Shown: in pieces, positions 409 through 34,825 of the stretch
Layout: every line of letters starts with the position of its first letter
Numbering within the stretch: the first letter of the stretch is position 1
NCBI GenBank assembly: GCA_035998445.1
Contig: DASYHQ010000018.1
Location: 248,001 to 312,000, forward strand
Direction of reading: 5' to 3'
Origin: Tepidisphaeraceae bacterium
GTDB taxonomy: Bacteria; Planctomycetota; Phycisphaerae; Tepidisphaerales; Tepidisphaeraceae
Length of the DNA: 64,000 bases
The notes under the pieces: model-generated
Databases searched by the model: none
What the model saw: the letters and a program-made list of their open reading frames with translations, nothing else
Told to the model about the DNA's origin: nothing
Translations under genes and position numbers: made by a program

Positions 409-435
409 CCTGAGGTACTCCGAAGGATCTCTCCG

Positions 436-2189: not shown

Positions 2190-2507
2190 TCATAGACCCA
2201 CCTTGGCCAGGTACGCAGCGGTGCCGTCGTCGGCGACGCCGTTCGGATTCCCGGCCTCACCGACAGGAATCCCAGCTTCGCTCATGCGTTCGACGAAGCG
2301 CCGCAGCGCGGCCTCGCTCGTCACGAGCGTGTCGCCCATGCGGATTGCTTCAAGACGAACGCCCCGGATGCCGCGCGCGTGAAAACGCCTGATGCTGCTG
2401 AAGCTGAACGGCGAGCCCGTCTTTGGGTTGACGAACCAATCGACCTTGCCGTGCGCGACGGCAGACAGCGGGTAGAGAGGCCTTTCGCTCGCGGGGTCAA
2501 TGGGCAT
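2190..2507 (-). CDS. DUF1580-like small DNA-binding protein
   Basis: 105 residues starting MPIDPAS, with GGAGGT five bases upstream. The core, SSIRRFHARGIRGVRLEAI then MGDTLVTSEAALRRFVERMS, matches the pattern of DUF1580-like planctomycete proteins: a MerR/excisionase-type HTH followed by a strand and a helix. A related protein occurs in element B at 8061-8366. Likely a regulator or recombination-directionality factor; the function is inferred. The start overlaps the stop of the upstream HTH gene, so the two are translationally coupled. Confidence 0.65.
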   Translation of the reverse strand: MPIDPASERPLYPLSAVAHGKVDWFVNPKTGSPFSFSSIRRFHARGIRGVRLEAIRMGDTLVTSEAALRRFVERMSEAGIPVGEAGNPNGVADDGTAAYLAKVGL

Positions 2508-2721
2508 GCGATACCTCCACACGCTCCGCCGGCGCCGTTGCCCCGCACTGCGCTCGCTCTAGAATGGCGGCCTCGACGGCGACGACGTCGAACAGCAACT
2601 GTCGTCCAGCTTTTACGTGAGGCAGTCGGCCAGCTTCGGCTTCGCTACGCAGCCACCCGACCGGCACGCGAAGGCGCCGAGCGAGTTCGGAAACGTTCGC
2701 AAGTCTCGATTGCGATTCCAT
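2497..2721 (-). CDS. excisionase-like helix-turn-helix protein
   Basis: 74 residues from MESQSRLANV. The sequence VSELARRLRVPVGWLRSEAEAGRLPHVKAGRQLLFD is a standard excisionase/MerR-type HTH with a C-terminal wing. Such proteins act in phage as Xis or as transcription regulators. The stop overlaps the downstream DUF1580-like start. A longer TTG-initiated form beginning at 2745 is possible but less likely. The gap at 2722-2847 shows no gene. Confidence 0.65.
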   Translation of the reverse strand: MESQSRLANVSELARRLRVPVGWLRSEAEAGRLPHVKAGRQLLFDVVAVEAAILERAQCGATAPAERVEVSHAH

Positions 2722-4995: not shown

Positions 4996-5094
4996 GTTGA
5001 GCCTCCACAGAAGGTTCGACCACGCCGTCGGGTGGTTGCACACCGCGACGGCATTTTCGTTTCAAGCCGCACACGTCATGCGACCGACATAGGT

Positions 5095-5122: not shown

Positions 5123-5137
5123 GCGATCGCTTGATAT
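5100..5137. promoter_or_regulatory. operator palindromes of element A repressor
   Basis: A perfect 22-bp palindrome at 5116-5137 (half-site ATATCAAGCGA) and a second dyad at 5100-5113 (AACGC, four bases, GCGTT) lie between the leftward early operon and the rightward XRE gene. Position and symmetry fit a dimeric HTH repressor controlling both directions. The matching XRE gene begins 28 bp to the right. Confidence 0.7.
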
Positions 5138-5165
5138 TCGCTAAATCGATCTTAGGATGGTCTCT

Positions 5166-5366
5166 ATGGGTGTCGACACGAACAAGATCCGCACGCTCCG
5201 AATAGCCAAAGGTTTGACGATGGCGGCGGTCGCGCAGCTCGCTGGCATGCGTACAGCTCAGCAATGGAACGGCGTGGAGTCCGGCGAGCGCAAGAATCCT
5301 TCGATCGACACCGTGCAGCGAATGGCGAAGGCGCTCGGGGTCAAGGTAGACGCTCTGCTTAAGTGA
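5166..5366 (+). CDS. XRE-family HTH repressor of element A
   Basis: 66 residues from MGVDTNKIRT (a start at 5157 adds three). This is a single Cro/C1-type HTH: IRTLRIAKGLTMAAVAQLAGM, recognition helix RTAQQWNGVESGERKNP, and SIDTVQRMAKALGVKVDALL. There is no cleavage or dimerisation domain, so it is Cro-like in size. AGGA upstream favours 5166. It is divergent from the early operon, with symmetrical operators between them, so it probably represses that operon and itself. Confidence 0.8.
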   Translation: MGVDTNKIRTLRIAKGLTMAAVAQLAGMRTAQQWNGVESGERKNPSIDTVQRMAKALGVKVDALLK

Positions 5367-5414
5367 CGCCCTGGACACCGGTCTTTGACCGTCGCCGGGC
5401 TGAGGGTTAGAACG

Positions 5415-5442
5415 GGGTTATTCTCCAATTGGAGAACAACCC
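5415..5442. promoter_or_regulatory. 28-bp near-perfect palindrome near the right end of element A
   Basis: The centre TTCTCCAATTGGAGAA (5421-5436) is perfectly symmetrical and is flanked by GGGTT (5415-5419) and AACCC (5438-5442) with one unmatched base each side. It lies about 90 bp from the att core, after the repressor gene, and has no T-run, so a protein-binding site (integrase arm, excisionase or regulator) is more likely than a terminator. Confidence 0.55.
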
Positions 5443-5485
5443 GTGGAAGTAGGTGGTTCTGGCCGACACCGAAGCCCGCGAGAAA

Positions 5486-5506
5486 GCCTGAAAAAGCAGG
5501 CGTTTT
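5486..5506 (+). terminator. hairpin with T-run, end of element A
   Basis: GCCTG (5486-5490) pairs with CAGGC (5497-5501), followed by GTTTT. It is a short stem in the 3' region of the XRE gene, just before the att repeat. It could end repressor transcription; weak because the stem is only 5 bp. Confidence 0.35.
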
Positions 5507-5533
5507 CCGCTAGGTCGTGATTCCCCCGTGACG

Positions 5534-5577
5534 CATGACACGCTGGGGGTCACAGGTTCGAGCCCTGTACCGCCCAT
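5534..5577 (+). other. att core: 3' half of tRNA-Val(GAC), left copy
   Basis: It begins at tRNA position 31 and runs through anticodon loop ATGACAC (anticodon GAC, U33 and A37 equivalents present), stem GCTGG, variable loop, T arm ACAGG-TTCGAGC-CCTGT, acceptor strand ACCGCCC and discriminator A. No 5' half (expected to start GGGCGGT) precedes it, so it is not a working tRNA gene. It is identical to 34782-34825. It serves as both the right end of element A and the left end of prophage B. Confidence 0.88.
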
Positions 5578-5694: not shown

Positions 5695-6999
5695 ATGCCG
5701 AAGCTATCCCCCGGAAAAGTCCCGAAGTACCGACTGCATAAGCAATCGGGCCGCGGCATCGTCACGATCCACGGCAAAGACAAGCTCCTGCCCGGCAAGT
5801 ACGGGTCACCGGAGAGCCGCAGGGAGTGGGCGCGCCTCACCACCGAATGGCTTGCCAGAGAGGGAATGCCGCCCGCCCCGGAAAACGGAAGAACGGAATC
5901 GGAACCCCTGACCGTCGCCCGCCTGGTGGTGCAATTCTGGCGACACGCCAAAACCTACTACCGCGGCACGAACGGCGGGATCAGCCACGAGGCATATCAT
6001 TACCGCGACGCCCTGCGCCCGGTTGTGCGGTTGTACGGGGCTACGCCTGCCAACAATTTCCAAGGGCCAGCGCTGGAGGCTGTGCAACGCGAGATGATCC
6101 GGCTCGGTTGGTGCCGAAACTACGTCAACCGCCAAGTCAGCCGGGTGCGGCACGTCTTCACATGGGCGCTGGCCAAAGGGGTAGTAAACGCCGACGTAGT
6201 GGTCGCACTGCGGGCGGTCACCGGACTGAAGAAGGGCCGCAGCGGAGCGCGTGAGTCGGGTAAGGTGAAACCGGTGGCCGATGCCCATATCGCGGCCGTG
6301 CTGTCTCACCTGTCGCCAACGGTTCGCGCGATGGTGGAGTTGCAGTCCATCACCGGCATGAGGCCCGGCGAGCTGTGCGACTTGCGCGGGGTGGATCTGG
6401 ACATGAGCCGCACGCCTTGGACCTACCGCCCCAGCACCCATAAGACCGCGTATATGGATAAAGACCGGAGCATCGACCTAGGCCCGCGTGCCCGGGCGAT
6501 AATCGAGCCGTTCCTACGGGCTGACGTGAATGCCCACATCTTCAACCCTGCCGACGCTGCTGCGGAAGGCCGGCGACGCCGCGGTGAGACGCGCAAGACG
6601 CCAGCAAGCTGCGGGAACGCCCCCGGCACCAACCGCAAGCGCCGCCCAAAACGACGGCCCGGTCATCGGTTCGACGTCCATGCCTACCGCCGGGCCATCG
6701 CCCGCGCCTGTGAGACTGCTTTCCCCTTACCGTCGACCCTGGGGCCGCGCTCTGGTGAAAGTCGCCTAGCATGGCGAGAACGGCTAACGCCAGCTGAGCA
6801 GGCCGCGGTGAAGGCGTGGCGCAGGGAGCATCATTTCCACCCGCACCGGTTGCGACATTCGGCAGCGACCCGCTGGCGAGCCGATCATGGGCCGGATGCC
6901 GCGCTCGTGCTGCTGGGTGATTCAAGCACGAGGATGATTGACGTTTATGCAGAGAAAGATCGGCGGCTGTCGTCGTCGATCATGGAAAAGATCGGTTAG
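5695..6999 (+). CDS. int: tyrosine recombinase, prophage integrase
   Basis: 434 residues. An N-terminal arm-binding part and SAM-like core-binding domain (about 70-175) precede a catalytic domain with Arg223 (ITGMRPGE), Lys250 (THKTAYMDK), the HxxR box His384/Arg387 (HPHRLRH) and nucleophile Tyr418 (MIDVYAEKD). The usual LGH is LGD (Asp409). A basic insertion of about 90 residues (290-380) separates the two halves of the catalytic domain, larger than usual. It lies 118 bp right of the att core, so it is probably the enzyme that joined prophage B to tRNA-Val. Start ATG at 5695. Confidence 0.93.
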   Translation: MPKLSPGKVPKYRLHKQSGRGIVTIHGKDKLLPGKYGSPESRREWARLTTEWLAREGMPPAPENGRTESEPLTVARLVVQFWRHAKTYYRGTNGGISHEAYHYRDALRPVVRLYGATPANNFQGPALEAVQREMIRLGWCRNYVNRQVSRVRHVFTWALAKGVVNADVVVALRAVTGLKKGRSGARESGKVKPVADAHIAAVLSHLSPTVRAMVELQSITGMRPGELCDLRGVDLDMSRTPWTYRPSTHKTAYMDKDRSIDLGPRARAIIEPFLRADVNAHIFNPADAAAEGRRRRGETRKTPASCGNAPGTNRKRRPKRRPGHRFDVHAYRRAIARACETAFPLPSTLGPRSGESRLAWRERLTPAEQAAVKAWRREHHFHPHRLRHSAATRWRADHGPDAALVLLGDSSTRMIDVYAEKDRRLSSSIMEKIG

Positions 7000-7110: not shown

Positions 7111-7971
7111 ATGGAAACGCAGGACGACCAGGTTGAGTACGCAACGCACTTTCTTTCAAATGCCAGCGGAGCGTTTGACCAGATGCAGTCGTTTTACTCC
7201 AGGTTCACTCACAATGAAGATCGCAGCAACTTAATCGGCAGGGTTGCTGGGCTGTTTCAAAAAAGGGAGGACCCGCGGCACGCAACGTCCTTCGAATTCC
7301 GATATGGGGTCTACGAAGACGTGCGTCACATTATTGGTGACGAAGGCTACGACTACCTCTCCGAGAAACTTCAAGTGATAGCCGAGCGGCTCGAAAAGAA
7401 AGCGTTGACAATCGAAGATGAAGCGAAGCTGCACTTCACGAAGATGAGACATGCTGCGTTAGACCTCACTCGACTGGTTTTAGGGACCGACTACGAGCGA
7501 TCCGAACACGGCGTAAAGATCCTGCGGATCATCGAGTTGATCGAGGCTTACTGGGACGCACAAGGCGAACCAGATTGGCGGAAACGTATGCTCGGCTACT
7601 TGAACGATTTAGTTGAGTTGCAGGATGCAATTCGCGGAATCGATATCCCTCGCCTCGTGCAATCGCGACGCTCGGAGTTCCCGCCCTTCCGCCGCTATGA
7701 GGAAGATACGCCAGTTCGATCGGATAGCCCGCCGGTGCTTCCTGCGGAGGATGAGTCGCCCGGGGATCTAATCTCCATGGATCAAGCGGCGGCGCTAGTG
7801 GGGCGAACTAAGCGCACCGTTCAAGGTTGGAACGAAATCGATCCAATGCCGCTGCCAGAAGTCGAGGGGGGTGGAGGCAAACGGCATGAATACAGCTACG
7901 CGAAGCTAAAGCCATGGCTGGAGCAGCACTCTGGACGCAAGCTCCCGGACCAATTGCCCGACCTGCGATAG
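7111..7971 (+). CDS. hypothetical protein with C-terminal HTH
   Basis: 286 residues. The N-terminal 200 are helical, rich in Tyr, Glu and Arg, and unrecognised. After a Pro/Asp linker, about 222-278 form an excisionase/MerR-type HTH: LISMDQAAALVGRTKRTVQGW with a wing ending YSYAKLKPWLEQ. The gene is visibly A/T-richer than the genes around it, a sign of separate acquisition. In this position (after int) it could be a regulator, an anti-phage cargo gene or an Xis partner; nothing seen decides. AGGTGA lies upstream of the ATG. Confidence 0.7.
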   Translation: METQDDQVEYATHFLSNASGAFDQMQSFYSRFTHNEDRSNLIGRVAGLFQKREDPRHATSFEFRYGVYEDVRHIIGDEGYDYLSEKLQVIAERLEKKALTIEDEAKLHFTKMRHAALDLTRLVLGTDYERSEHGVKILRIIELIEAYWDAQGEPDWRKRMLGYLNDLVELQDAIRGIDIPRLVQSRRSEFPPFRRYEEDTPVRSDSPPVLPAEDESPGDLISMDQAAALVGRTKRTVQGWNEIDPMPLPEVEGGGGKRHEYSYAKLKPWLEQHSGRKLPDQLPDLR

Positions 7972-8060: not shown

Positions 8061-8366
8061 ATGACCGATTCATTCCTGAACGAGCCAGCCATCACTTTGG
8101 CAGAGGCAACGCGACTGCCCCAACTCGCACGCAACGGCCGCCGTCCAAACCCTTCCACGATATTTCGCTGGGCATCCTGCGGGGTCCGGGGCGTCAAGCT
8201 TGAGATTCGCCAGGTGGGCGGCAGTAAGTGCACGAGCCGCGAAGCCGTCACGCGATTCATCGCCCGCCTGAGCGGTGACGAGGGTGCCCCCGTCGCTCGC
8301 ATCAATCCACCCGCAGGCACCGGTGGCGGCGCGGTCGAACTGGAGCTTCAGGCGGCTGGGTTCTAG
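8061..8366 (+). CDS. DUF1580-like protein, possible excisionase or regulator
   Basis: 101 residues. ITLAEATRLPQLARNGRR, STIFRWASCGVRGVKLEIR and GGSKCTSREAVTRFIARLSG match the DUF1580-like pattern of planctomycete proteins: an HTH in which the recognition helix STIFRW is followed by a strand and a wing. It is related to the element A protein at 2190-2507 (shared RGVxLE and TSxEAxxRF). Its location near the integrase fits a recombination directionality factor, but that is inference. The ATG at 8061 is preceded by GAGAGGCGAA. Confidence 0.72.
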   Translation: MTDSFLNEPAITLAEATRLPQLARNGRRPNPSTIFRWASCGVRGVKLEIRQVGGSKCTSREAVTRFIARLSGDEGAPVARINPPAGTGGGAVELELQAAGF

Positions 8367-8410
8367 CCGCTGATTTCCAGTTTGCCCGTCTATATGTGAG
8401 AGGGAAGTAA

Positions 8411-8452
8411 AAAAGGCCGCAGCACCGGGACTCTACTTCGGTGCTACGGCCT
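8411..8452 (-). terminator. terminator-like hairpin facing left, upstream of the ParB/Topo VIA gene
   Basis: AGGCCG-C-AGCACCG (8414-8427) pairs with CGGTGCT-A-CGGCCT (8439-8452), one internal mismatch. Six A residues precede the stem on the plus strand, so on the minus strand the hairpin is followed by a T-run: a canonical leftward rho-independent terminator. No minus-strand gene precedes it. It sits 10 bp before the gene at 8463 and could also fold in that gene's leader RNA. Confidence 0.5.
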
Positions 8453-8462
8453 GGGACTCCAA

Positions 8463-9920
8463 ATGCATTCTAGCAGTCGCACGCCATCACTGCCAACCAC
8501 AAAACGCCGCAGCCGTCCCGCAAGGAACGCTGTAGCTAGCGTGCTCGTGTCGTCGCTCAAGCCGTCCGCAACCAACGACTCCCTATACCGCCCGATCGAC
8601 ACCGACGACGCCAACTTTAAGAAGCTGGTGCGCAGCGTCCTGAAGCGCGGACGTGTCATGCAGCCGCTACTGGCGACGCGCGACGGAATCCTAATCAGCG
8701 GTCACCGAAGGCTAGCCGCGGCAAAGGTCGCACAGCTTGTCGCGGTGCCGTGCCAGTTCACGGAAAGGGACCGCCAAGATTATAGCGATGCCGAATTTCT
8801 TGAGCTGATCCGTGAGCACAACCTGCAAAGGGAAAAGACGCTCGCGGAGCAGCACAACGAGGCGCTGGTAGACGTCGCCCGCGAAGGCACCGCCTACGCC
8901 GACCTGCTGGCCGATCGTCAGGAGAAACTAGACAAGTCTGGTTTCTCTTTAATGACGTTCGACATCGTTGGCGAAAAGGTCCGTTCCGAGATATCAAAGG
9001 CGCTTCACCCGTTCCTAATTGCGTGCATGCGTGTCATCGACCAGAACCGCGATTTCTGGCCCCTAAGCGTCCGCCAGATTCACTATCGCCTGCTGGGTGA
9101 GAACGCCCCGCTAAAGCACGCGAGCAAGCCCGGATCGACGTATGTGAACGATCGCAAGTCTTACCAGGCGCTCAGCGACCTGCTGACGCGCGGCCGCCTC
9201 GTTGGTCGAATCCCTTGGCACACCATCAGTGATGAGACACGCGACTTTGAGGGCTGGCCAGTCCATCAGGCAATCGGACCCTACATCACGTCTCAAATGG
9301 ATCGGTTGTTCACCACCTACTGGCGTGACCGCCTGCAAAGTCAGCCGCATCACGTCGAAGTCATCGGTGAGAAAAATACGGTTAAGACGATCGTGAGTTC
9401 CGTTTGCCGTGAATACACCGTGCCCTACTCGATCGGCCGCGGCTACTGCAGCATCCCGCCACGCTACGAGATGGCCCAACGCTTCCGACGAAGCGGCAAA
9501 GACCGCCTAATCGTGCTGATCCTCAGCGACTTGGACCCGGACGGTTCGGAAATCGCGCAGAGCTTCGCCCGGTCGATGCGCGACGACTTCAACATCGCAA
9601 ACATTGAACCGATAAAGGTGGCGCTGACGCCCGAGCAGATCGACCAGTACGACCTGCCGCCGAAGATGGTGGCCAAACCAACGTCTAGCAACTACGCCAA
9701 GTTCGTCGCGGCTCACGGGCAACACGTATTCGAGCTTGAGGCTCTGGAGGCGTCGCAGTTGCAGGACGTATTGCGCGATGCAATCAACCGGGTGCTCGAT
9801 ATTGATCTTTACAACCGCGAAGTCGAAGCCGAGGCCAGAGACGCGGATTACCTGAAGGCATGCCGGCTAACGCTCATCAAGGCCGCGCAGCAGATGGGAA
9901 TACGCGGCCTGTCAGCATGA
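8463..9920 (+). CDS. fusion of ParB-like domain with Topo VIA/Spo11-like (Mini-A type) DNA-cleaving domain
   Basis: 485 residues. The N-terminal part (about 30-130) is ParB/sulfiredoxin-like: FKKLVRSVLKRGRVMQPLL, then ILISGHRRLAAAK (76-88, the GxRR box). Residues about 175-430 look like a Topo VI A subunit: the winged-helix motif LSVRQIHYRLL puts Tyr208 at the catalytic tyrosine (RDIYY in Spo11/Topo VIA). A TOPRIM fold follows with Glu303 (VEVIGEKNT) and the acidic pair in DLDPDG (356-361). No Topo VIB/GHKL ATPase is nearby, as in the Mini-A proteins described from mobile elements. It probably makes DNA breaks, perhaps at sites chosen by the ParB-like part. Start codon not backed by a clear Shine-Dalgarno site. 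Confidence 0.8.
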   Translation: MHSSSRTPSLPTTKRRSRPARNAVASVLVSSLKPSATNDSLYRPIDTDDANFKKLVRSVLKRGRVMQPLLATRDGILISGHRRLAAAKVAQLVAVPCQFTERDRQDYSDAEFLELIREHNLQREKTLAEQHNEALVDVAREGTAYADLLADRQEKLDKSGFSLMTFDIVGEKVRSEISKALHPFLIACMRVIDQNRDFWPLSVRQIHYRLLGENAPLKHASKPGSTYVNDRKSYQALSDLLTRGRLVGRIPWHTISDETRDFEGWPVHQAIGPYITSQMDRLFTTYWRDRLQSQPHHVEVIGEKNTVKTIVSSVCREYTVPYSIGRGYCSIPPRYEMAQRFRRSGKDRLIVLILSDLDPDGSEIAQSFARSMRDDFNIANIEPIKVALTPEQIDQYDLPPKMVAKPTSSNYAKFVAAHGQHVFELEALEASQLQDVLRDAINRVLDIDLYNREVEAEARDADYLKACRLTLIKAAQQMGIRGLSA

Positions 9921-10840
9921 GCTTCCCGCCCCCGCTGGCGAATAGCTGGCGCGAGGCGGTTTAACAAGCACCTTCGGTCGCCCGCCTGACACGCGGCCGA
10001 GGGGATCACAAAAGTACCTGCGGGTACGAGGTTGATGGCTTAGCCTGTTCGCGAAAAGCCAGATGTGAGGCGTAGCCGGTCGAACCGGGCATGACGTTAC
10101 AGACATCGGGAGCTAACCCCTACCCGGTGCCGGTGGCTGCTATGTGAATCCCCTCAATCGTCGGCTGTGCCCGTGGTGGCGTCGGACGGTCAGGGATTGG
10201 TTCACATGACCACCGCGCTCGACTCGACCGAAGCGGCCCGCCCTCGTCAGCGGCGAAATGGTGAAAGATCGAGGAACACACACGCGTACCGAGTTCCAGG
10301 CTCATACTGCACCGTCCCCTGTGTCAACGCACAGGGGTCACTCCGCAACCCGTTTCCTTCTCACCTGCTGTTTGGTGCTGACGGTGCTTAGTGCTGTCTT
10401 TCCTGTCTGAGCGTAGCGAGGTGGCCTGATGAGGGCACTGTACCCGGTGCCTGAAGATGGCCATGTATTGAGCGCTTTATTGTACGATCAGAGAACTAAC
10501 AGCTAATCGAGCGCGTACTATTAGAGGGTGACCGTGCTGAACTGTGCTGATCTAGATCATGCGTCTGAAGCGATGATGCCAAGGGGGTGCGCACCTGCGC
10601 TACCTGCCAAAGTTATCCACAAAATCGGGCCGCCCGCGGCGCCGGAACCGCCACATTCACGCCCGCTTTCACCAAAAACCCCTGCTTTTCGGCCAAAAAG
10701 AGCCGGCGCCTGCCCTACCGACCGGTTCCGCAACCCATCTGCGGGCTGTCTGGTGCCGAGTGCATCGGGGAAGCAACCGGGAAGCGATGGGAAAGCACCT
10801 GAGAAGCAACCGAGAAGCACCCACCACACAGGAGCGACGA
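9921..10840. other. 0.9-kb non-coding stretch with DnaA box, repeats and hairpins; candidate origin or centromere
   Basis: I find no convincing gene on either strand in 920 bp. It holds one perfect DnaA box (10613-10621), a hairpin CCCCTGTG-TCAACG-CACAGGGG (10316-10337), GTGCTGA-type heptamers at 10375, 10384 and 10391 and again at 10534 and 10544 (9-10 bp spacing), and the palindrome GATCTAGATC (10549-10558). Placed just after the ParB-fusion gene, it may hold a replication origin or ParB-like target sites. Short frames here (such as 10167-10391) lack coding character. Confidence 0.45.
10613..10621 (+). promoter_or_regulatory. perfect DnaA box
   Basis: TTATCCACA is an exact consensus DnaA-binding nonamer inside the non-coding stretch after the ParB/Topo VIA-like gene. 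A single box can occur by chance, but few are expected at this GC content. Confidence 0.5.
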
Positions 10841-12157
10841 ATGGGTAACAACGGTCCTAATGTCAGAGAGACGAATCGAAAGTGGCTCACGCTGCCCGCG
10901 CGCATCGGTGCCCGCGATGCGGAAGAGATCGGGGCGAACCTTGCCACCATGGCCGACCCCGAGTGCCGCACACTCTACTCCGAGAGCGACCTGCTGCGGA
11001 TCGAGGACGAGCTGCCAGAGCTACAGGACCAGGTGCGATACGCCAGGATCATCCATCACGCGCGGGGCGTGAAGCCCGAGGCGCGACATTATCGCCGGGC
11101 CTGCACCTGCACCGATGCGATTCAGGCAGACTACGAGCCGTCGCACGGACCTTACCCGCTGATCATCCCGCCGATGGCGCACGTCGAATGCGACGCGCAC
11201 GGCCAGCCCTACTCGATCAATGGGATGCACGTCACCCAGCGGATCCACACGCCGCCGGCGGCGCTGGCCGATTGGGACCGGCGATACAACGAACTGGCCA
11301 AGGCCCGGAAGTCGACGCCACCGCGAGACGAGTATGAGTTCGTGCCGATCGTGCTGACCGACTACATCGACGAGCTGCCGGTGCACAGCGACCCCGAACC
11401 GCGGCCGGCGCGTGGCGTGGAGTGGCGCACGCCGTACGCTGCCACGCTGCCCCCGTCGCTCCGCAACATCCACCTGCGGTACGAGCCGACGTTCGCCGGA
11501 ATGACGGGCCAGCCGTTGCCGCAACCCGGCCGGCTGCGCATCTTCGACACCTACCGCGCCCAGTGGGAACGCGAGTGCGAACGCTTGGGAGTGGACGTCA
11601 CGCCCTATTGGTTCATCAAGGGACGCTGGCTGTTCAGTCTCGATACGACGCCAAGCGCCGTCTTCAATCGTCGTGGTCTCCGTCGTCAGCGCCGCCCACG
11701 GGGGCAGGCGATCCCGGCGAGCTGGTCGAGTTGGGAACCACCGCGCAGAGATCGCCCCGAATACCCGCACGGGCGAATGGACCTCAACGGCCTCTGGCGA
11801 ATCGACCGTAGGAAGGTCGCCTCCATTTTCCTACGCATCACGCGACCGCAGCACGAGTGCGCGACGCTCTACTTCCACGAGGGCTACACGATCGCCGAGG
11901 TGGCGCGTGCCAGGAACTGCGCGGTCAGCACCGTTCACGAACTGATCGAGCGAGTCCGAGAGGAATTCCGCAGGGAGGAACTGCCGGACCCGAAGCCCAA
12001 CTCGCTGTCCCCCACCGAATCGGGCTGGGAATCCGGTTACGTGCTGGTGAGTGCTCGCACCGCCTACGAGGATGAGGTGCGCCGCGGGTTCAAGCCGCCC
12101 CGCAAAGGTGCTGACGTGAATCCGTTCGCGCCCCGCGACAAAAATAAAATTGCGTAA
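10841..12157 (+). CDS. phage protein with C-terminal sigma-region-4-like HTH
   Basis: 438 residues from MGNNGPNVRE, with AGGAG upstream; longer forms reach back into non-coding DNA. The N-terminal 330 residues are unrecognised, rich in Pro, Arg and Tyr, with CTCTDAIQ (Cys pair) and HVECDAHG. Residues about 335-378 form a sigma-70 region 4/LuxR-like HTH: CATLYFHEGYTIAEVARARNCAVSTVHELIERV. It precedes the packaging and head genes, so a late-gene activator is a reasonable guess. The C-terminal tail is basic and Pro-rich. Confidence 0.7.
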   Translation: MGNNGPNVRETNRKWLTLPARIGARDAEEIGANLATMADPECRTLYSESDLLRIEDELPELQDQVRYARIIHHARGVKPEARHYRRACTCTDAIQADYEPSHGPYPLIIPPMAHVECDAHGQPYSINGMHVTQRIHTPPAALADWDRRYNELAKARKSTPPRDEYEFVPIVLTDYIDELPVHSDPEPRPARGVEWRTPYAATLPPSLRNIHLRYEPTFAGMTGQPLPQPGRLRIFDTYRAQWERECERLGVDVTPYWFIKGRWLFSLDTTPSAVFNRRGLRRQRRPRGQAIPASWSSWEPPRRDRPEYPHGRMDLNGLWRIDRRKVASIFLRITRPQHECATLYFHEGYTIAEVARARNCAVSTVHELIERVREEFRREELPDPKPNSLSPTESGWESGYVLVSARTAYEDEVRRGFKPPRKGADVNPFAPRDKNKIA

Positions 12158-12290
12158 GTTGTCGCCCCCACATCATTTGCACGGGATCCGACCACTCCGA
12201 ATCGGTAAATAACCGAATTTCCCGTCCGTACTTGTAAGGGGAAGCAAGTGAAAATTGAAAGCCGCCGGTTGTGCTGACCGACGGTTCATA

Positions 12291-12299
12291 GGGGGGGGG
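12291..12299. repeat. homopolymer of nine G
   Basis: A run of nine G lies in the 266-bp gap before the AP2/HNH gene at 12424. The gap holds no other recognised element. Such a tract can vary in length by slipped-strand mispairing and is also a common place for sequencing error. Confidence 0.6.
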
Positions 12300-12423
12300 T
12301 ACTTCCGGGGTGCCTTCCCCCCAGAATCCCGAAATCCCGAAATCTGAAACACCCACAACCCATCGCACGACGAAGCCCGACAGGGCTTTCTGTCGTTGCG
12401 CCACACACCCCGAAGGAGAACGA

Positions 12424-13020
12424 ATGCGAAAGCTAAGGCGAAAGAACGTGCCACCGGAGCGGCAACCGTACTTTGATGAGGCGATGAACTGTTACCGCGT
12501 CCCATTGACCAATGGTCGCACAGCGACAATCGACGCTGAAGACGTCGAACGGGTGTCGCAGTTCCTATGGCGATGGAGGCCGCACAAGTCGCTGGCCAAT
12601 GGGCAAGCGGAGCACCGCCTGTACGTGTCGCGCACCGAGTACACAAACGTGCGGCTGAGTCGATTCATCCTCGGTGTCAGTGACGACGTTCGGTTCATCA
12701 ACCACATCAACGACGACTCGCTCGACTACCGAAAAGCGAACCTGCGGACATTCACGCGAGAGGAGTCGTCCCGACACTTCAAGAAGATGAAGAAGAACCG
12801 CTTTGGTGACACGCCAAGCAGCCGCTTCAAGGGCGTTTCGCGGTTCCAAGACACTGGTAAATGGATCGCCCAAATCCGAAAGGACGGGGTGAACTATTAC
12901 CTTGGCCTATTCACAGACGAAGAGGCCGCGGCCCGAGCGTACGATGCCAGCGCGTTGGAGAAGTTCGGCCACGCGGCGCGCATCAACTTTGCCATCCCAC
13001 TGACCCAGGAGGCCGCATGA
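12424..13020 (+). CDS. HNH-type endonuclease with AP2 DNA-binding domain
   Basis: 198 residues from MRKLRRKNVPP, with AAGGAG upstream. The first 115 are an HNH homing-endonuclease-like module (VRLSRFILG, FINHINDDSLDYRKANLRTF; His in NHIN is the expected catalytic position). Residues about 135-190 are an AP2 domain (SSRFKGVSRFQDTGKWIAQI, then YYLGLFTDEEAAARAYDASA and INFA). AP2-HNH proteins are known from phages and plant-like homing endonucleases, where they cut DNA at specific sites. A second, related gene overlaps the stop. Confidence 0.85.
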   Translation: MRKLRRKNVPPERQPYFDEAMNCYRVPLTNGRTATIDAEDVERVSQFLWRWRPHKSLANGQAEHRLYVSRTEYTNVRLSRFILGVSDDVRFINHINDDSLDYRKANLRTFTREESSRHFKKMKKNRFGDTPSSRFKGVSRFQDTGKWIAQIRKDGVNYYLGLFTDEEAAARAYDASALEKFGHAARINFAIPLTQEAA

Positions 13021-16638: not shown

Positions 16639-17000
16639 ACCCCACCACCACCGCGCGCAAGCCGCGCCTGCTGCGGAAGACCAACACCAATGGCTATCTG
16701 ATGCTGCGCCGACCGTCGCACCCGATGGTCACGCGCAACGGCTACGCCTACGCCCACCGCGTCGTTCTCTTCGACCGGATCGGCCCCGGCCAGCACAAGT
16801 GCAACTGGTGCCCGCGCATCGTCACATGGGCGCACCGCTGGCCGCTGCAACCCGACAGCCTCACGGTCGATCACGTCGATTCCGCCAAGGCCAACAACGA
16901 CGACGCCAACCTCGTGCCCTCGTGCCCGTCCTGCAACTCGCGACGGGCAGCGGCACGCCGGGCGGCGATCAAACGCTTGATGGGGAGGCTGGCGGCTTGA
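16635..17000 (+). CDS. second HNH endonuclease
   Basis: 121 residues. A strand-rich start (NGYLMLRRPSHP, NGYAYAHRVVLFDRIGPGQH) is followed by CNWCPRIVTW, LTVDHVDSAKANNDDANLVPSCPSCNSRR: HNH with two Cys pairs for a structural zinc. It overlaps the first HNH gene (ATGA) and the terminase large subunit TTG start. Two HNH genes in a row before TerL is unusual; one may be the packaging cofactor and the other an independent or homing-type nuclease. Confidence 0.85.
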   Translation: MNPTTTARKPRLLRKTNTNGYLMLRRPSHPMVTRNGYAYAHRVVLFDRIGPGQHKCNWCPRIVTWAHRWPLQPDSLTVDHVDSAKANNDDANLVPSCPSCNSRRAAARRAAIKRLMGRLAA

Positions 17001-18598
17001 AGCGGCTTGAACTGAAGGAAGACGCCGAATTCTACTACGACGAAGCCGCGGCGATGGCCCCGGTTCGGTTCGCGGAGAAGTTCTTGCGCCACTACGAAGG
17101 GCAATGGGCGGGCCAGCCGTTCACGCTCATGGATTGGCAGCGCGACGAGGTGATCAAACCCCTCTTCGGCTGGAAGCGCCGGAAGGATGGCCGCCGCCGG
17201 TTCCGCGAACTGTGGTTGCTGACCGCCAAGGGAGCGGGCAAGACACCGCTGCTGGCGCTCGTGGGCATGTTCATGCTGCTGGCAGATGGGGAGGAAGCGC
17301 CGCACATCATCAGCAGCGCCACGGACGTGCCGCAGGCCCGGCTCACGTTCGACGCCGCCAAGAAGTACATCGCCGCCAACCGGACGCTGGAACGCGCCTG
17401 CCGTAGTCTGCAACACGAGATCAAGGGACCGAAGAACGCGAAGTGGGAGGCGGTGAGCGGATCGGCGGAAGGCCGACACGGTTACCGCCCCACCTGCCTG
17501 CTGATGGACGAGGCGCACGAGTGGCCGAATGGTGCGCTCTACAAGAACCTGACCGCCAATATGTTCAAGCGGCCCAACTCGCTGACGTTGGTGACGACCA
17601 ACGCCGGTCCCAGCCGCACCTGCTTCGCGTGGTCCCTGCACGAGCGTGCCTTGGCGGTCCTGAACGGCACGAGCGACAACACGAAGCTACTGCCGGTGAT
17701 CTACGAGACGCCGGAAGACATGGATTGGACGACCGAGGCCGCGGCGAAGGTCGCCAACCCTTCCATCGGCCACCTCGTTCAGTTTGAAGACCTCGCCACC
17801 GAACTGAGCGACGCGAAGCTGAGCGACGACGCCGAGGCCCGGTATCGTCGGCTGTACCTGTCGCAGTGGCAAAAGACGGGTGAGGGCCGCTGGCTGAGCA
17901 TGGCATTGTGGGACGCGTGCGAGACGGTCGACGCGCTGACCATCCCGACCGACGCCGCGCTATTCGTGGGGCTCGACCTGAGCCTGGGCGACGACCTTTG
18001 CGCCGTCGCGTTCGTCTGGGCGACGCCCGAACGGTTCTACCTCGACTCCCATTTCTGGACGCCCAAGGCCACCGCTGAGGGGTACGAGGCATCGCACGGC
18101 GTGCCGTACCAGAAGTGGGCGAACGACGGGCATATCACGCTGGTGGACGAGCTGACCATCAGCGGCGCGGTGCACGACCGGATCGCCGCCTACATCGTGG
18201 AGCGTGCGAAGGGTCACAAGGTCCGGGCGATCTGCTTCGACCGCGCCCACGCCCTGCACACAGTCAAGGCGCTGGAGGCCGCGGGATTGCGGGCGGTGCC
18301 GATCGGCCAGGGCTACGAGGTGTCGCCCGGCTGCTTCGAGCTGGAACGCCGCATCAAGGAATCGACCGTCACCATCCGCGCCAACGGCGTGCTGCGGTTC
18401 TGCGCGACGAACGCCGAAATCTACGAGGACCAGCGCGGCAACATCTACCCGATCAAGCCGGGGGCCAAGGGCAAGTTCAAGGGCACCAAGCACCTGAAGA
18501 TCGACGGCATATCCGCCGCGGCCAACGCCTTCAAAGAAGCAAAGCGTCACACGTTCCCCAAAGTCCGAACCATCTTCAAAGGACCCAGAGTCATATGA
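16997..18598 (+). CDS. terL: phage terminase large subunit
   Basis: 533 residues from a TTG start that overlaps the HNH stop; GGGGAGG lies 8 bases upstream. The ATPase domain has Walker A TAKGAGKT (76-83) and Walker B LLMDEAHEW (168-176). The RNase-H-like nuclease begins FVGLDLSLGDD (Asp327), with CFDRAH a probable second acidic cluster. This is the packaging motor and headful/cos nuclease. It belongs to the HK97-type head block and is followed by the portal gene with a 4-base overlap. An in-frame extension to 16799 is another frame of the HNH gene. Confidence 0.93.
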   Translation: MKRLELKEDAEFYYDEAAAMAPVRFAEKFLRHYEGQWAGQPFTLMDWQRDEVIKPLFGWKRRKDGRRRFRELWLLTAKGAGKTPLLALVGMFMLLADGEEAPHIISSATDVPQARLTFDAAKKYIAANRTLERACRSLQHEIKGPKNAKWEAVSGSAEGRHGYRPTCLLMDEAHEWPNGALYKNLTANMFKRPNSLTLVTTNAGPSRTCFAWSLHERALAVLNGTSDNTKLLPVIYETPEDMDWTTEAAAKVANPSIGHLVQFEDLATELSDAKLSDDAEARYRRLYLSQWQKTGEGRWLSMALWDACETVDALTIPTDAALFVGLDLSLGDDLCAVAFVWATPERFYLDSHFWTPKATAEGYEASHGVPYQKWANDGHITLVDELTISGAVHDRIAAYIVERAKGHKVRAICFDRAHALHTVKALEAAGLRAVPIGQGYEVSPGCFELERRIKESTVTIRANGVLRFCATNAEIYEDQRGNIYPIKPGAKGKFKGTKHLKIDGISAAANAFKEAKRHTFPKVRTIFKGPRVI

Positions 18599-19797
18599 AC
18601 CTCGCACCCGAAGCATTGGAAGTGATCAACATGGGCGGCAGCTACGAGGGCGGGATCATCCCCCCGGCGCTGATCAACGCTTACTCCGCGATGGCCATCA
18701 CCCCCTACTGGCGGGCGATGAACTTTCTGGCCACGAACCTTGCGGCGTTCCCGCGGTCGGTGCGCCAGAACGGCAACCGGATGGACGACGCCGAGCCGCA
18801 CCCGCTGGCGAAGCTGCTGCGCCGCAAGCCCAACGGCTACCAGACGCCGCAAGTGATGTGGCGGACGTTCTACTACCACGCCGCCAACAAGGGCAACGGC
18901 TATCTGTGGATCGAACGGGACGCCGCGACGTTCAAGCCGATCGGCCTGCACAACCTGTTGCCCGAGGACGTCCACCCAATCCGGTACATCCACGAGGGCG
19001 AGAAGACGCCAACGCAATACTACCTCGTGCGATCGACCAAGACCGTGCTGAGCGGGGCCGACGTCATCCACATTCAGGCGCTGGGGCACGACGGGCATTG
19101 CGGCACGAACCCCGTGGAGCAGCACGAGGCGACGTTTCAGCAGGCCATGGCGCTCGACCGGTTCCAAACCCGTTTCCTGCAAAAGGGCACGATGATCCGG
19201 GCGGCCATCGAGTTGCCCGAGGCGGTCGGGGCCGACGATGACCTCGTGGACGAGATCCAAGAGACGATGCGCCGCTACTTCCGCGGTGCCGATGCCGAGC
19301 GCGATATCGTCGTGCTGCCCAACGGCGCGAAGCTGAACAACGCCACGCTATCGCCGGCCGACAGCCAGCTTGCCGAGCAGGGGGCGGTACTGACGAAGAA
19401 GATCGCCCAGATTACAGGCGTCCCGCCCCACTTCCTCTACGAGTTCAAGGATGCCAAATACAACAACCTGACCGAGCAGATGGGCCAGGACGTAGTGCGC
19501 TACACGTTCCTGCCGTGGATTCAGCAGACCGAGGAAGAGCTGACCGCCAAGCTGCTGACCGACGACGAGCTTGACGAGGGCTACGCGATCCACCTGAACC
19601 CCGACGCCCTGCTGCGCGGATCGTCCAAGGAGCAGATGGAAGTCGTCACCCTTGGCGTCAAGTCGGGCATCTACACCGAGAACGAGGGCCGCGGGCTGAT
19701 CGGGATGCCCGCCGTGGCCGACGCCAGCGCCAACCAACTCAAGCGGCTGGGCGACACCGCGCCCCCGCCGGCCGCTGGCGACGCGGAAGCCGAGTGA
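18595..19797 (+). CDS. HK97-family portal protein
   Basis: 400 residues. The N-terminal part PPALINAYSAMAITPYWRAMNFLATNLAAFP, then HPLAKLLRRKPNGYQTPQVMWRTFYYH is typical of the phage_portal family. The wing and crown regions (KNGYLWIE, VLPNGAKLNNATLS) and KIAQITGVPPHFLYEF are characteristic. Twelve copies form the ring through which DNA enters the procapsid. Length is normal. The ATG overlaps the TerL stop and is preceded by AAAGGA. Confidence 0.93.
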   Translation: MNLAPEALEVINMGGSYEGGIIPPALINAYSAMAITPYWRAMNFLATNLAAFPRSVRQNGNRMDDAEPHPLAKLLRRKPNGYQTPQVMWRTFYYHAANKGNGYLWIERDAATFKPIGLHNLLPEDVHPIRYIHEGEKTPTQYYLVRSTKTVLSGADVIHIQALGHDGHCGTNPVEQHEATFQQAMALDRFQTRFLQKGTMIRAAIELPEAVGADDDLVDEIQETMRRYFRGADAERDIVVLPNGAKLNNATLSPADSQLAEQGAVLTKKIAQITGVPPHFLYEFKDAKYNNLTEQMGQDVVRYTFLPWIQQTEEELTAKLLTDDELDEGYAIHLNPDALLRGSSKEQMEVVTLGVKSGIYTENEGRGLIGMPAVADASANQLKRLGDTAPPPAAGDAEAE

Positions 19798-19833
19798 CCA
19801 TTTCCATTATCCCTGTCTCATTAGGGGACCACT

Positions 19834-20427
19834 ATGAAAAACGAAGCGCTGAAGTTCTACACCATCGACACGCAGTTCGCCGTCGCATCGACCGAGGGCA
19901 AGCCGACGACCCTCACGGGCTATGCGATCGTCTACAACGCGCTATCGGACGACCGCGGCGGCTACCGCGTGCGGATCAAGCCCGGTTCGGTGTCGTTCGC
20001 CAAGGAGGTGCAGGCGCTGTACTACCACGCCCACCCCGAAGTTCTGGGCACGACCGCCAACGGGTCGCTGCGCCTCACGTCCGACACGTTCGGCGTGAAG
20101 GTGGAGATCGACCTGCCCGACACCCAGCGCGCCCGCGACGTGGCCGAGCTGGTGGGCAAGCGGTACGTCACCGGGATGAGCTTCGCCATGGTGAGCACGC
20201 CCAAGGGCACGTTCACCACCGAGGGCGGGCAACGCATCCTCAACGCCGAGGCGTTCACCATCGACGAGGTGACCGTGACCGGCATTCCCGCGTTCGTTCA
20301 ATCCAACATCACGGTGAAGACGGACGACGACGCCCGATTCGCCAGCCGCCGGGCCGACGCCCTGCGCCTCGATCAATTCAAACTCGACCTGTACCGGCTA
20401 CCGGGCGCGTTGCCTGCCGCCGTCTAA
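19834..20427 (+). CDS. HK97-family prohead protease
   Basis: 197 residues. Family motifs LTGYAIVYNALSDDRGGYRVRIKPGSV, YHAHPEVLGTT (catalytic His) and VTGMSFAM (catalytic Ser) are present, with VTVTGIPAFV near the end. It cleaves scaffold or the capsid N-terminus during maturation. It follows the portal after 36 bp and precedes the capsid gene, the standard order. The capsid N-terminus has the coiled delta-domain expected as substrate. Confidence 0.9.
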   Translation: MKNEALKFYTIDTQFAVASTEGKPTTLTGYAIVYNALSDDRGGYRVRIKPGSVSFAKEVQALYYHAHPEVLGTTANGSLRLTSDTFGVKVEIDLPDTQRARDVAELVGKRYVTGMSFAMVSTPKGTFTTEGGQRILNAEAFTIDEVTVTGIPAFVQSNITVKTDDDARFASRRADALRLDQFKLDLYRLPGALPAAV

Positions 20428-20465
20428 CCCTAGCGCCCCATAGTCGGGCCAGAAAGAGATTGTCC

Positions 20466-21689
20466 ATGGACACGAAGTCACTGCGCGAAGAGTTCAGCCG
20501 CCTCACCACCGAGGGGCAGACCCTTCTCGACACCCTCGCCACCGAGAACCGCGACAAGTCGGAGGCCGAAGAGACGGCCAGCGCCGCCCGCTTCTCGCGA
20601 TTGGAGAAGATCAAGAGCCTGCTGGACGAGCAGGCCAAGTTCGCCTCGCTCAAGCTGGCCGACGACGCTGGCGACGGCGACGCCAACGTGGTGCTGCCGA
20701 AGGAAGACCCCGGCCGCGACGCGTTCAACGCGTCCGAGGGCAAGGGCGCGAATGGCACCGCGGCAGAACCGAAGGTCGACCGCCAGCAGTTCAACCGTGC
20801 GTTGAACCACTGGGCATTGACCGGCGATATGGCCCGCCAATTCGCTACTATCACCACCGCCACCCAGTCGGGCGCGTTGCTGCCCAAGATGGTGGCGCAG
20901 CCCGTCGTCGTCACCTACCCGACGGCGTTCCGCCAGGCCATGGCGCTGTATGGCGTTCAGCCGGTCAGCGGGTCGAGCACGGCCGAGATGAACCTGCCCG
21001 TGGTGATCGCCGCCGTTGGCAGCGACCTGTCGGAGACGGCCACCAGCGGCACGCAGAACGAGCCGTCGCTGACCGAGACGATCAACCTCAAGCCGGCACC
21101 CATCCAGTCGGGCCAGGCGTGGGTATCGAATCTGGAACTGGCCGCGCTCGATTACGACCTGCTGGGGTCGCTCGTGCCGTCGCTGATCGACGCGAAGGAA
21201 ATGCGCCTCGAACAGAAGGCCATGGCCGCGATCATCGCCGACACTGGCATTACCCAGAGCGAGGCAACGGCCACGATCTCGGGCCTGACCTACGACAACC
21301 TCGTGGACCTGAACAACAAGCTGGCCACCCGCTGGGACCGCCAGAAGGTCATCATCCTTTCGCCCGCCGCCTACACCGCGGCCTGCAAGCTGACGGGCGA
21401 CGACGGCCACCCGGTGCTGCTGAAAGACCCGCAGAACCAGACGCTGGTGCGCCTGAACGGCACGCCGGTGCTGAAGTCCGATTACCTCGAAGCGTTCGGC
21501 GCCAACAAGGTCGTCGGCATCCTCGTGAGCCTCGTGGGCTTCCGCCTGCGCGACGCAGGCACCCAGAAGATCGTGCGCCACCTCGACGACAAGGACAAGG
21601 TCGACCAGACCGGCCTGAACGTCATCGGCTACCACGCGTGGGGGTACGCCCCGAGCGCGATGGTCAAGCTGAAGTGCCCCGCCTCGTAG
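20466..21689 (+). CDS. HK97-family major capsid protein
   Basis: 407 residues from MDTKSLREEF. Residues 1-70 are a coiled scaffolding (delta) domain (TLLDTLATENRDKSEAEETA). Residues about 125-407 hold the HK97 fold: FATITTATQSGALLPKMVAQ, a long beta region around LPVVIAAVGSDLSETATSGT, and RLEQKAMAAIIADTG. Cleavage after the delta domain is expected near residue 115. A longer in-frame extension from 19794 belongs to another frame of the protease gene. A hairpin follows at 21714. Confidence 0.92.
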   Translation: MDTKSLREEFSRLTTEGQTLLDTLATENRDKSEAEETASAARFSRLEKIKSLLDEQAKFASLKLADDAGDGDANVVLPKEDPGRDAFNASEGKGANGTAAEPKVDRQQFNRALNHWALTGDMARQFATITTATQSGALLPKMVAQPVVVTYPTAFRQAMALYGVQPVSGSSTAEMNLPVVIAAVGSDLSETATSGTQNEPSLTETINLKPAPIQSGQAWVSNLELAALDYDLLGSLVPSLIDAKEMRLEQKAMAAIIADTGITQSEATATISGLTYDNLVDLNNKLATRWDRQKVIILSPAAYTAACKLTGDDGHPVLLKDPQNQTLVRLNGTPVLKSDYLEAFGANKVVGILVSLVGFRLRDAGTQKIVRHLDDKDKVDQTGLNVIGYHAWGYAPSAMVKLKCPAS

Positions 21690-25642: not shown

Positions 25643-27898
25643 ATGGCCAAGAACATCAGCAGCTTATGGGTGGGGTTGACCGGCAACGTGTCGGGCCTGT
25701 CCAAGTCGTTCGGCGGTGCCATCGGCACCATCAAGGGGCTCGCGGGCAGCGTCGCGGGCGCTGGCGGCAAGCTGCTGGCGCTGACCGGGATCGGCGCGGG
25801 CGTGGCCGGCGCGTTCGCGGCCGTCAAGGGCGCTGCGTCGGGCATCTCGCTGGCTGCGGATCTAGAGCAGACCGGGGTCGCGTTTGAGACGATGCTTGGC
25901 AGCGCCGACGCCGCGGGCGCGATGATGGAGCAGCTAAAGAGCTTCGCTGCCTCAACGCCATTCGAGTTCCCCGAGATCGCCAACGCCACCAAGTCACTGC
26001 TGAACGCCGGCGTGGGCGCGGGGGAGATGACCGATAAGCTGCGCATGCTGGGCGACATCTCCGCAGGCTCGGGCAAGCCGCTTAATGAGTTGGTCGCGAT
26101 ATTCGCAAAGATCAAGAATACGGGCCGATTGCAAGGCGACACGCTCGCGCAGCTGGCCGAGGGTGGCGTGCCGGTCTACAAGGCGCTCTCTAAGCAGATG
26201 GGCGTTTCAACCGAGTCGATCGGTCAGATGGTCAGCGAAGGCAAGGTGAGCTTCGCCGAACTGGAAACCGCGTTAGGCAGCCTCACGGCGGCCGGCGGCA
26301 TTTACGAGGGGATGACGCTAAAGCAGAGCCGGACGCTGGGCGGGCTCTGGTCGACGCTCACCGACACCATCGGCATGAGCATGGCCGATCTGGTGATGAT
26401 CGTCGTGGACGCGTTCTCGCTTCGGGCAGGTATGACGGCGCTCACGGATGGGCTCGCGTGGGCAGGGGCCGCCGTGGGCGGATGGGTGAAGGGCATCGCG
26501 CCGATCGTCAAGGCGTTCGCCGTCAGCGCCTACCAATCGTTCGTGGGGTTCTACCAAGCCGCGGTGCCGATCCTGGGCCGCGTTTACTCGTTCGTTTCCA
26601 GCATCTTCGGCCAGCTCGTGCCCGTGGTGACGGGCGTGGCGACGACGCTGTGGACCGTGGCAAGCACGACGTTCACGGCCATCTACAACACCGTTGCCCC
26701 GATCGTCCAGACCCTTTACACCACGGTGGCATCGCGGTGGCAGGGTCTGCTTACGTCGACCATCACCTACGGGCTCGCCATCTGGGGCGCGGTGCAGTCG
26801 GCGTTCGGCCTCGTGCTCGACGTCGCCAACGTGATGTGGAACGGCGTGGTGAGCGTGTGGAACTGGGGCGCGTCGTGGATCACCGGTTCCAGCACGAGCG
26901 CCGCGTCAACGGTCAGCGGTGTGTTCGCAGGCGTGGCCGACGTCTTCGGCTGGGTGCAGGAGAAGGTGACCGCCGCGTTGAATATCGCGTCGTTCGCGGT
27001 CGACAACTGGCGCGACGTGTTCGCGCTGGCGGGCACCAACGTGCTGTGGACCGTCGTCAGCCTGGGCAACCAGATCGCCCACGTCTTCACCGAGGTCATC
27101 CCGTCGATCCTGACGTGGTTCGGCGACAACTGGAAGACGATCCTGCTGGACAACTTCAACTACGCCAAGGCGTTCTTCACGAACATCGCCAGCAATGCGG
27201 TGGCCATCCTGACGAACATCCCCGGCCTCATCAGCGGGCAAATGTCGTTCGCGGACCTGTGGACGCCGCTGGGGGAGGGGTTCAAGTCCCAGCTTTCCGA
27301 GATGCCGAAGATCGCCGAACGCGAGATCGGCGGGCTTGAGGCCACGCTTGCCGCTTCCAGCGCGTCGTTGGCCAACTCCCTCGTGACGGGCTACGACGCG
27401 AAGATCGCCGAGCAGAAGGCCGCTGCGGACGCCGCGAGCAAGGCGATTACCGATGGGGTCACCAACGCGTTCAAGCCGCCGGAGAAGATCGACCCGCCCG
27501 CCGTTGGCGAGGTGAAACCGCCGGAGCTGCCCACGATCGGGCTCGACGCGAAGGTGAACCAAGACAACCTCACCGTGGGCATCACGCCGGAACTGAAGCT
27601 ATCCAAGATGGTGATGGCGGGCAGCGCCGAGTCGCAGGCCATGCGGTTCCTGTCCCCGGACATCGCCGCGGCACTGAAGGGACCGGCCACGCCAGTCGCG
27701 GGCGCGGCCGGCAGCACCACCGCCCCCATTGCGATGGACGGTCCGAAGCAGCCGACCGTCGAGCAGTCGGCGGGCATGAAGCAGACCACCGACGATTTCG
27801 CGCGGCTGCAACTGGCCGAGCTGACCAAGCAGTCGTCGCTGCTGAAGTCGATCGACGACAGCCTGGCGAGCACTGACAACCTCACAATTGATTTCTAA
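25643..27898 (+). CDS. phage tail tape measure protein
   Basis: 751 residues. After an Ala/Gly-rich hydrophobic start (about 30-75), the TMP_2-type region is clear: ADLEQTGVAFETMLGSADAA, EFPEIANATKSLLNAGV, GDISAGSGKPLNELVAIF and LAEGGVPVYKALSKQMGV. Residues about 260-530 hold several hydrophobic stretches, expected for membrane entry. The C-terminus has coiled and Pro-rich parts. It sets tail length; 751 residues implies a tail of about 110 nm if the usual 0.15 nm per residue holds. Confidence 0.93.
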   Translation: MAKNISSLWVGLTGNVSGLSKSFGGAIGTIKGLAGSVAGAGGKLLALTGIGAGVAGAFAAVKGAASGISLAADLEQTGVAFETMLGSADAAGAMMEQLKSFAASTPFEFPEIANATKSLLNAGVGAGEMTDKLRMLGDISAGSGKPLNELVAIFAKIKNTGRLQGDTLAQLAEGGVPVYKALSKQMGVSTESIGQMVSEGKVSFAELETALGSLTAAGGIYEGMTLKQSRTLGGLWSTLTDTIGMSMADLVMIVVDAFSLRAGMTALTDGLAWAGAAVGGWVKGIAPIVKAFAVSAYQSFVGFYQAAVPILGRVYSFVSSIFGQLVPVVTGVATTLWTVASTTFTAIYNTVAPIVQTLYTTVASRWQGLLTSTITYGLAIWGAVQSAFGLVLDVANVMWNGVVSVWNWGASWITGSSTSAASTVSGVFAGVADVFGWVQEKVTAALNIASFAVDNWRDVFALAGTNVLWTVVSLGNQIAHVFTEVIPSILTWFGDNWKTILLDNFNYAKAFFTNIASNAVAILTNIPGLISGQMSFADLWTPLGEGFKSQLSEMPKIAEREIGGLEATLAASSASLANSLVTGYDAKIAEQKAAADAASKAITDGVTNAFKPPEKIDPPAVGEVKPPELPTIGLDAKVNQDNLTVGITPELKLSKMVMAGSAESQAMRFLSPDIAAALKGPATPVAGAAGSTTAPIAMDGPKQPTVEQSAGMKQTTDDFARLQLAELTKQSSLLKSIDDSLASTDNLTIDF

Positions 27899-34781: not shown

Positions 34782-34825
34782 CATGACACGCTGGGGGTCA
34801 CAGGTTCGAGCCCTGTACCGCCCAT
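34782..34825 (+). other. att core: 3' half of tRNA-Val(GAC), right copy
   Basis: Identical to 5534-5577 over 44 bp. It is followed by TTTTTT, which fits the native transcription end of the host tRNA gene, so chromosomal sequence resumes at 34826. No 5' half precedes this copy. Confidence 0.88.

Follow-up and report, generated by a model that had tools for sequence, protein, structure and literature searches.

The window analysed here is a 64,000-nucleotide stretch of a Tepidisphaeraceae contig, and it carries a 29.2-kb prophage at positions 5534–34825, bounded by att repeats at tRNA-Val. Downstream of the integrase, this prophage encodes a protein in which a ParB-type domain is fused to a Mini-A core. 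The genes and sites of the prophage are as follows:

5534..5577, + strand: attL, a 44-bp direct repeat copying the 3′ end of tRNA-Val(GAC)
5695..6999, + strand: tyrosine integrase (PF00589, phrog_1)
7111..7971, + strand: DNA-binding/excisionase-like regulator, weakly matched (phrog_66, E 1.5e-4), between the integrase and HTH genes
8061..8366, + strand: small HTH protein (DUF1580), upstream neighbour of the fusion
8414..8452, + strand: 14-nt inverted repeat (13/14) with an 11-nt loop, lying past the HTH gene and before the start of the fusion
8463..9920, + strand: ParB–Mini-A fusion gene, 485 aa, ATG start, with homologues
10760..12157, + strand: gene with a C-terminal sigma-70-region-4-like HTH (phrog_1740, E 4e-5), downstream of the fusion
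16799..18598, + strand: terminase large subunit (phrog_9, E 1e-120)
18646..21689, + strand: portal, head maturation protease and major head protein genes
25643..27898, + strand: tail tape measure protein (phrog_9959, E 2e-52)
34782..34825, + strand: attR, the second copy of the 44-bp repeat, at the right end of the prophage

Positions 8400–8470, just upstream of the fusion, form a strong hairpin (−29.8 kcal/mol, z −4.3). The inverted repeat at 8414–8452 is possibly an operator or an mRNA hairpin. No clear second site of this repeat is present elsewhere in the window, and an inverted repeat at the corresponding place upstream of the fusion occurs at some of the other loci only. Searching positions 5000–35500 against Rfam gave nothing. 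At 12310–13634, between the fusion and the terminase, are two genes that resemble homing-endonuclease-type genes: both have HNH-like matches, and the first an AP2-like domain as well.

The fusion protein consists of a ParB-type N-terminal domain (residues 22–124) joined to a Mini-A, or topoisomerase VI-A, core (residues 178–444). Its parts map to the gene as follows:

8526..8834, + strand: ParB/Srx-type N-terminal nucleotide-binding domain, residues 22–124 (profile and structure matches)
8697–8711, + strand: S79-GHRR of the ParB part (GHRR, residues 80–83)
8820–8831, + strand: N-L-Q-R of the ParB part (residues 120–123)
8835..8993, + strand: helical connector and low-confidence linker, residues 125–177 (pLDDT, secondary structure)
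8994..9317, + strand: Topo VIA/Mini-A winged-helix-like part, residues 178–285 (1d3y alignment over residues 178–444)
9084–9086, + strand: codon of Tyr208 in R204-x-x-x-Y208 of the winged-helix-like part, invariant and in register with Topo VI-A
9321..9797, + strand: Toprim domain, residues 287–445 (Z 11.0 to 1d3y; invariant acidic residues)
9369–9371, 9528–9530 and 9534–9536, + strand: Toprim residues E303, D356 and D358

The initial annotation had described a ParB-type segment and a Topo VIA/Spo11-like part within one prophage protein lacking the usual B subunit, and this description was borne out. The segment ILISGHRRLAAAK corresponds to residues 76–88. The motif RQIHYRL with Tyr208, the residue Glu303 and the motif DLDPDG (residues 356–361) are all present as claimed, with the key residues invariant in 26 fusions. 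Pfam detects only ParB_N in the protein, and weakly (E 0.005). Among the PHROGs families, several ParB-like ones match residues 14–163, and phrog_6247, ‘DNA topoisomerase’, covers residues 228–459 (E 1e-39). The protein contains no GHKL domain, and the Topo VIB transducer PF09239 is absent from the 95.5% complete host genome.

Structural comparison with Topo VIA, which had been suggested as a check, supports the assignment of the core. The full-length model has a mean pLDDT of 84.7 and a pTM of 0.64, and given this pTM its domain arrangement is uncertain. In VIA-align, residues 178–444 match 1d3y, the A subunit of Topo VI, over 220 aa (Z 10.8, rmsd 5.0), and M. mazei Topo VI is matched as well. 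When the core was modelled alone (pLDDT 91.5), its top matches were the Toprims of Topo VI-A (1d3y, Z 11.0, 140 aa, rmsd 2.9); by itself this match stands at most moderately above background, given that designed Rossmann folds, the highest-ranking unrelated structures, reach Z 9. Foldseek alone ranked Topo VI-A weakly, and the structural claim thus rests on VIA-align. Aligning Mini-A against true planctomycete Topo VI-A by hhalign paired RQIHY with RExYY and, in the same register, E303 with the Toprim Glu and D356xD358 with DxD; the segment ‘LTPEQIDQYDLP’ is paired with ‘VTPQDVVDYKLP’. The score of this alignment, 34.4, exceeds the maximum of 29.7 among 60 column-shuffled controls and the 10.8 of a reversed control, at a low HH-suite probability of 24%. 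The Pfam models of Topo VI-A/Spo11 (PF21180 and PF04406) match neither the fusion protein at E ≤ 1 nor the host genome at E ≤ 0.001, and only one or two relatives of the fusion match them, at E 0.15–0.19. True Topo VI-A occurs in 89 of the 199 Planctomycetota genomes sampled, the host of the window being among those without it. By homology the core is Mini-A, and its invariant catalytic residues make double-strand breakage by the fusion plausible. In Topo VI and Spo11, the active site combines the Tyr of one protomer with the Toprim of the other. The proximity of Tyr208 to the acidic residues within a single chain, by which the initial annotation had meant to judge the core, is therefore a test unsuited to this family. 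No Mini-A biochemistry was found in the literature searched, and we know of neither a job nor a nucleotide gate for stand-alone Mini-A.

The N-terminal part was assigned to ParB by both profile and structure. Its profile comparison with Spo0J gave an E value of 4e-11, and VIA-align superimposed residues 22–124 on the ParB structures 7bnr, 7bnk and 7bm8 at Z 14 over 90 aa, with an rmsd of 1.6–1.8. In Caulobacter ParB, CTP binding involves R60, GxRR, N136 and R139, and hydrolysis involves Q58, E102 and E135 (PMC8367383). Among the fusions, the second Arg of GxRR is always kept and the first in 17/19, and N136 and R139 are retained as N120 and R123. The position of the phosphate-contacting R60 is not conserved, being mostly I/V, so that the domain possibly binds CTP weakly or has a different ligand. 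The hydrolysis residues are replaced, Q58 mostly by R/G/K, E102 by H in all, and E135 by H/C/Y/F/A. Taken together, these residues suggest that the ParB part probably keeps the binding of a CTP-like nucleotide but not its hydrolysis. PadC is a ParB relative without noticeable CTPase activity (PMC8367383), and by analogy binding without hydrolysis would be the natural prediction for the fusion. The subtype SGHRR … N-R-Q-R of the ParB domain is shared by a phage protein that is otherwise dissimilar (L040).

The central HTH and the C-terminal dimer domain of ParB are absent from the fusion. In the predicted model, residues 125–177 form two to three helices and a linker, after which the Topo VI-A part begins directly. 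The term ‘ParB-guided’, used initially for the enzyme, is therefore unsupported, given that there is no room for the parS-reading HTH or the dimer domain and that the residues for CTP hydrolysis are replaced. The same two missing domains argue against a partition factor, which would segregate phage or prophage DNA in the manner of ParB. The ParB N-domain fold (Z 14) would suit such a factor, but an integrated prophage needs none, and the invariant Toprim/Tyr site would be left unexplained; we consider this explanation very improbable.

The fusion belongs to a family with at least 26 full or partial members, found in Planctomycetota MAGs, one Deltaproteobacteria/Myxococcota MAG and IMG/VR contigs. 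On the viral contigs a single-protein scan found nothing, and the fusions there came from alignment-based scans. We aligned 26 non-redundant fusions, three of which are truncated (L050 and L092 at the start, L096 at the end); their identity to the window's protein is 33%–48%. Residues R204, Y208, E303, K304, D356, D358, G361, N120, Q122, R123 and K125 are invariant in this alignment, and G80, H81 and R83 nearly so. Given this invariance among proteins so diverged, the motifs are not due to chance. Adding 12 stand-alone relatives left R204, Y208, E303, K304, D356, D358 and G361 still invariant. If the protein were catalytically dead and used both folds only to bind DNA or to act as a repressor, its operator might be the inverted repeat at 8414–8452, but the persistence of R204, Y208, E303, D356 and D358 across diverged fusions and stand-alone relatives makes this extremely improbable.

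No ParB–Mini-A fusion was found among 50,697 phage and 72,556 plasmid records. In tblastn, 69 phage and 37 plasmid records match over about residues 148–480 only, corresponding to stand-alone Mini-A; their matches begin at residue 148 or later, and none of these relatives has an N-terminal ParB part. The N-terminal 162 aa of the fusion alone matched no phage record. Archaeal plasmids annotated with ‘Topo mini-A’ are among these stand-alone matches. One of them, LC711082, matches at E 2e-14, and the protein of phage NP1, a named Mini-A example (PMC7614492), at E 1e-17 with 28% identity over residues 191–455. In a tree of the cleaving core, built from 20 fusion and 16 stand-alone Mini-A rows, one branch with a support of 100/100 separates the fusions from the stand-alone rows. 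Thus, a single fusion event is the simplest reading of the clade. Its nearest sister, L053, is a stand-alone planctomycete Mini-A protein whose 3-kb locus contains no ParB gene. Related genomes also encode longer Mini-A-like proteins of about 370–440 aa without a ParB domain (L009, L010, L011 and L066), a divergent group with an RRLHY-type motif, EKS and DFDP(A/S)G. Broken or partial fusion-type genes, with a short frame or a single end, were seen in planctomycete genomes (L052, L054, L063 and L067), as expected of decaying prophages.

A third copy of the att repeat, searched for by its 32-bp core, lies at contig position 227241, where it coincides with the 3′ end of a tRNA-Val(GAC) that is intact. 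From the three copies, one of them the tRNA 3′ end, we infer that two prophages stand in tandem at tRNA-Val. The left, sister prophage covers positions 1–5577 of the window and 227241–253545 of the contig. The two prophages are syntenic over at least 15 genes, with the late genes of the left one oppositely oriented, and their proteins are 58% (terminase), 53% (head protein), 61% (protease) and 41% (integrase) identical. The left prophage has no ParB- or Mini-A-like gene; it carries instead the following genes in the slot and at its left side:

436-1350, − strand: DnaC-like helicase loader of the sister prophage (phrog_50, E 5e-22)
1208-2134, − strand: RepO-like initiator of the sister prophage (phrog_678, E 3.5e-24)
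2190..2522, − strand: sister homologue of the DUF1580 HTH gene, at the left side of the slot

The RepO and DnaC genes (436–2134) had also been considered as part of the prophage that carries the fusion; this was dropped, as synteny and the att repeats assign them to the left one. Between the HTH and sigma-like genes, then, the left prophage has RepO and the DnaC loader, whereas the right one has the ParB–Mini-A fusion. The flanking homologies that frame this comparison are weak (34% over 70 aa, E 9e-8, for the DUF1580-type HTH gene; 30% over 91 aa for the gene at 10760..12157), with the gene order in agreement. Among the genes scanned elsewhere in the right prophage, none is recognisable as that of an initiator, primase or helicase. 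The tandem sisters form a natural pair for comparison, with the fusion standing where a replication-start cassette is otherwise found.

At about ten other loci, the fusion has replication genes as direct or close neighbours. They include a gene of the primase-helicase type (L025 and L038, more weakly L018), Prim-Pol (L028, L033 and L092), an AAA_25 gene (L016 and L032), a RepO-like gene (L039 and L047) and a DnaD-like gene (L049). At many loci the replication genes stand beside the fusion and are not replaced by it; at L088, a terminase follows directly 3′ of it. The stand-alone Mini-A of phage PaMx25 sits among primase/helicase, ligase and RecA genes. The RepO and DnaC genes in the same slot of the sister prophage, together with the replication genes near the fusion elsewhere, point to a place in the phage replication module. 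Of the recombination or partition role first proposed, the partition part is disfavoured by this neighbourhood. The recombination part survives as a Spo11-like nuclease whose programmed breaks would feed phage recombination, excision or integration, not replication. It is in keeping with the Topo VI-A/Spo11 fold, the integrase and excisionase-like genes close by, and the RecA-like gene adjoining the PaMx25 Mini-A. However, the sister prophage does without the fusion despite a shared integrase and att site, and replication genes recur by the fusion in the company of unrelated integrases or serine recombinases, so we regard such a nuclease as unlikely. A role in defence or counter-defence, in which a nuclease like DndB, GmrSD or JetD/MksG would attack competing DNA, appears improbable. 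ParB-domain nucleases are found in defence systems (PMC10853773, PMC12839542), and the C. glutamicum nuclease 8b7f matches at Z 9.9, but only over the Toprim part (134 aa), against 220 aa for Topo VI-A. Furthermore, the fusion is located among replication genes of the early region rather than in a cargo region, and no partner defence genes were seen near it.

A small excisionase-like HTH_17/AlpA/DUF1580 gene lies upstream of the fusion, mostly adjacent to it, at 14 loci, some of these Pfam matches being below Pfam's own cut-off. At L091 the stop of the HTH gene and the start of the fusion overlap (7884/7887), and at L094 an HTH is fused in cis to the N-terminus. The upstream genes and the cis-fused HTH make it likely that a partner, in trans or in cis, contributes DNA binding to the fusion, although the adjacency may mean little, as integrases often have excisionase-like HTH genes next to them. 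At two loci the fusion is followed by a gene with a ParB domain of its own (L095:9569-10894 and L032 at about 11374–12759), the former a ParB-N6/N4 DNA methylase by Pfam.

We lean slightly towards the explanation that, as a whole, the fusion is a phage replication-module enzyme that combines a Mini-A cutting core with a ParB-type switch. In this putative model, the core most likely forms a homodimer and breaks DNA via Tyr208, with Glu303, Asp356 and Asp358 holding the metal for cleavage. Breakage would leave protein-linked 5′ ends and free 3′-OH ends. The ParB part may act as a nucleotide-dependent dimerisation switch, which would load or close the enzyme on phage DNA, and the small HTH protein encoded upstream would aid the loading and may provide the site. 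The breakage would serve phage replication, either in initiation or priming or in untangling the replicated DNA. The position of the fusion suggests that the replication of the phage DNA is started or resolved in an unusual manner. A more specific version, tentative and on the whole rather doubtful, is a nucleotide-gated enzyme of a type IIB-like kind. Here a ParB clamp would stand in for the GHKL ATPase gate of the B subunit, and dimerisation of the ParB domains, driven by nucleotide, would capture DNA and control breakage by Tyr208 at or near the phage origin; the 3′-OH could even prime replication and so replace the RepO–DnaC cassette.

No published ParB fusion to Mini-A was found in the literature searched, which does not prove its absence. 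The fusion resembles Mini-A (PHROG 6247; phages, archaeoviruses and plasmids) in its RxxxY, E and DxD residues, the lack of a B subunit and its occurrence on mobile elements, and it differs by an extra N-terminal ParB-type domain of about 150 residues and by forming a separate clade. With Topo VI-A/Spo11 it has in common the fold over 220 residues and the catalytic Tyr and Toprim in register, whereas it lies below Pfam detection, resides in a host without the B subunit and bears a ParB domain instead. The CTP-binding clamps ParB, Noc, KorB and PadC share with it the N-domain fold and the GxRR, N and R residues; the fusion lacks their HTH and C-terminal dimer domain, and has GHRR in place of the GERR of ParB and H/C-N-x-Q-R in place of E-N-x-Q-R. 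In Topo VIII, a nucleotide-binding dimerisation domain precedes the A-type core in one chain. The plan of the fusion is analogous, with a ParB-type domain where Topo VIII has a GHKL ATPase/transducer B-part. Topo VIII also occurs on mobile elements (PMC7614492). A ParB clamp on a Spo11-type core is a testable idea of how such cores might be loaded and controlled without a B subunit. If the fusion does cut DNA under nucleotide control, it would add a third gate for the type IIB core to those of Topo VI/VIII and the meiotic Spo11 complexes.
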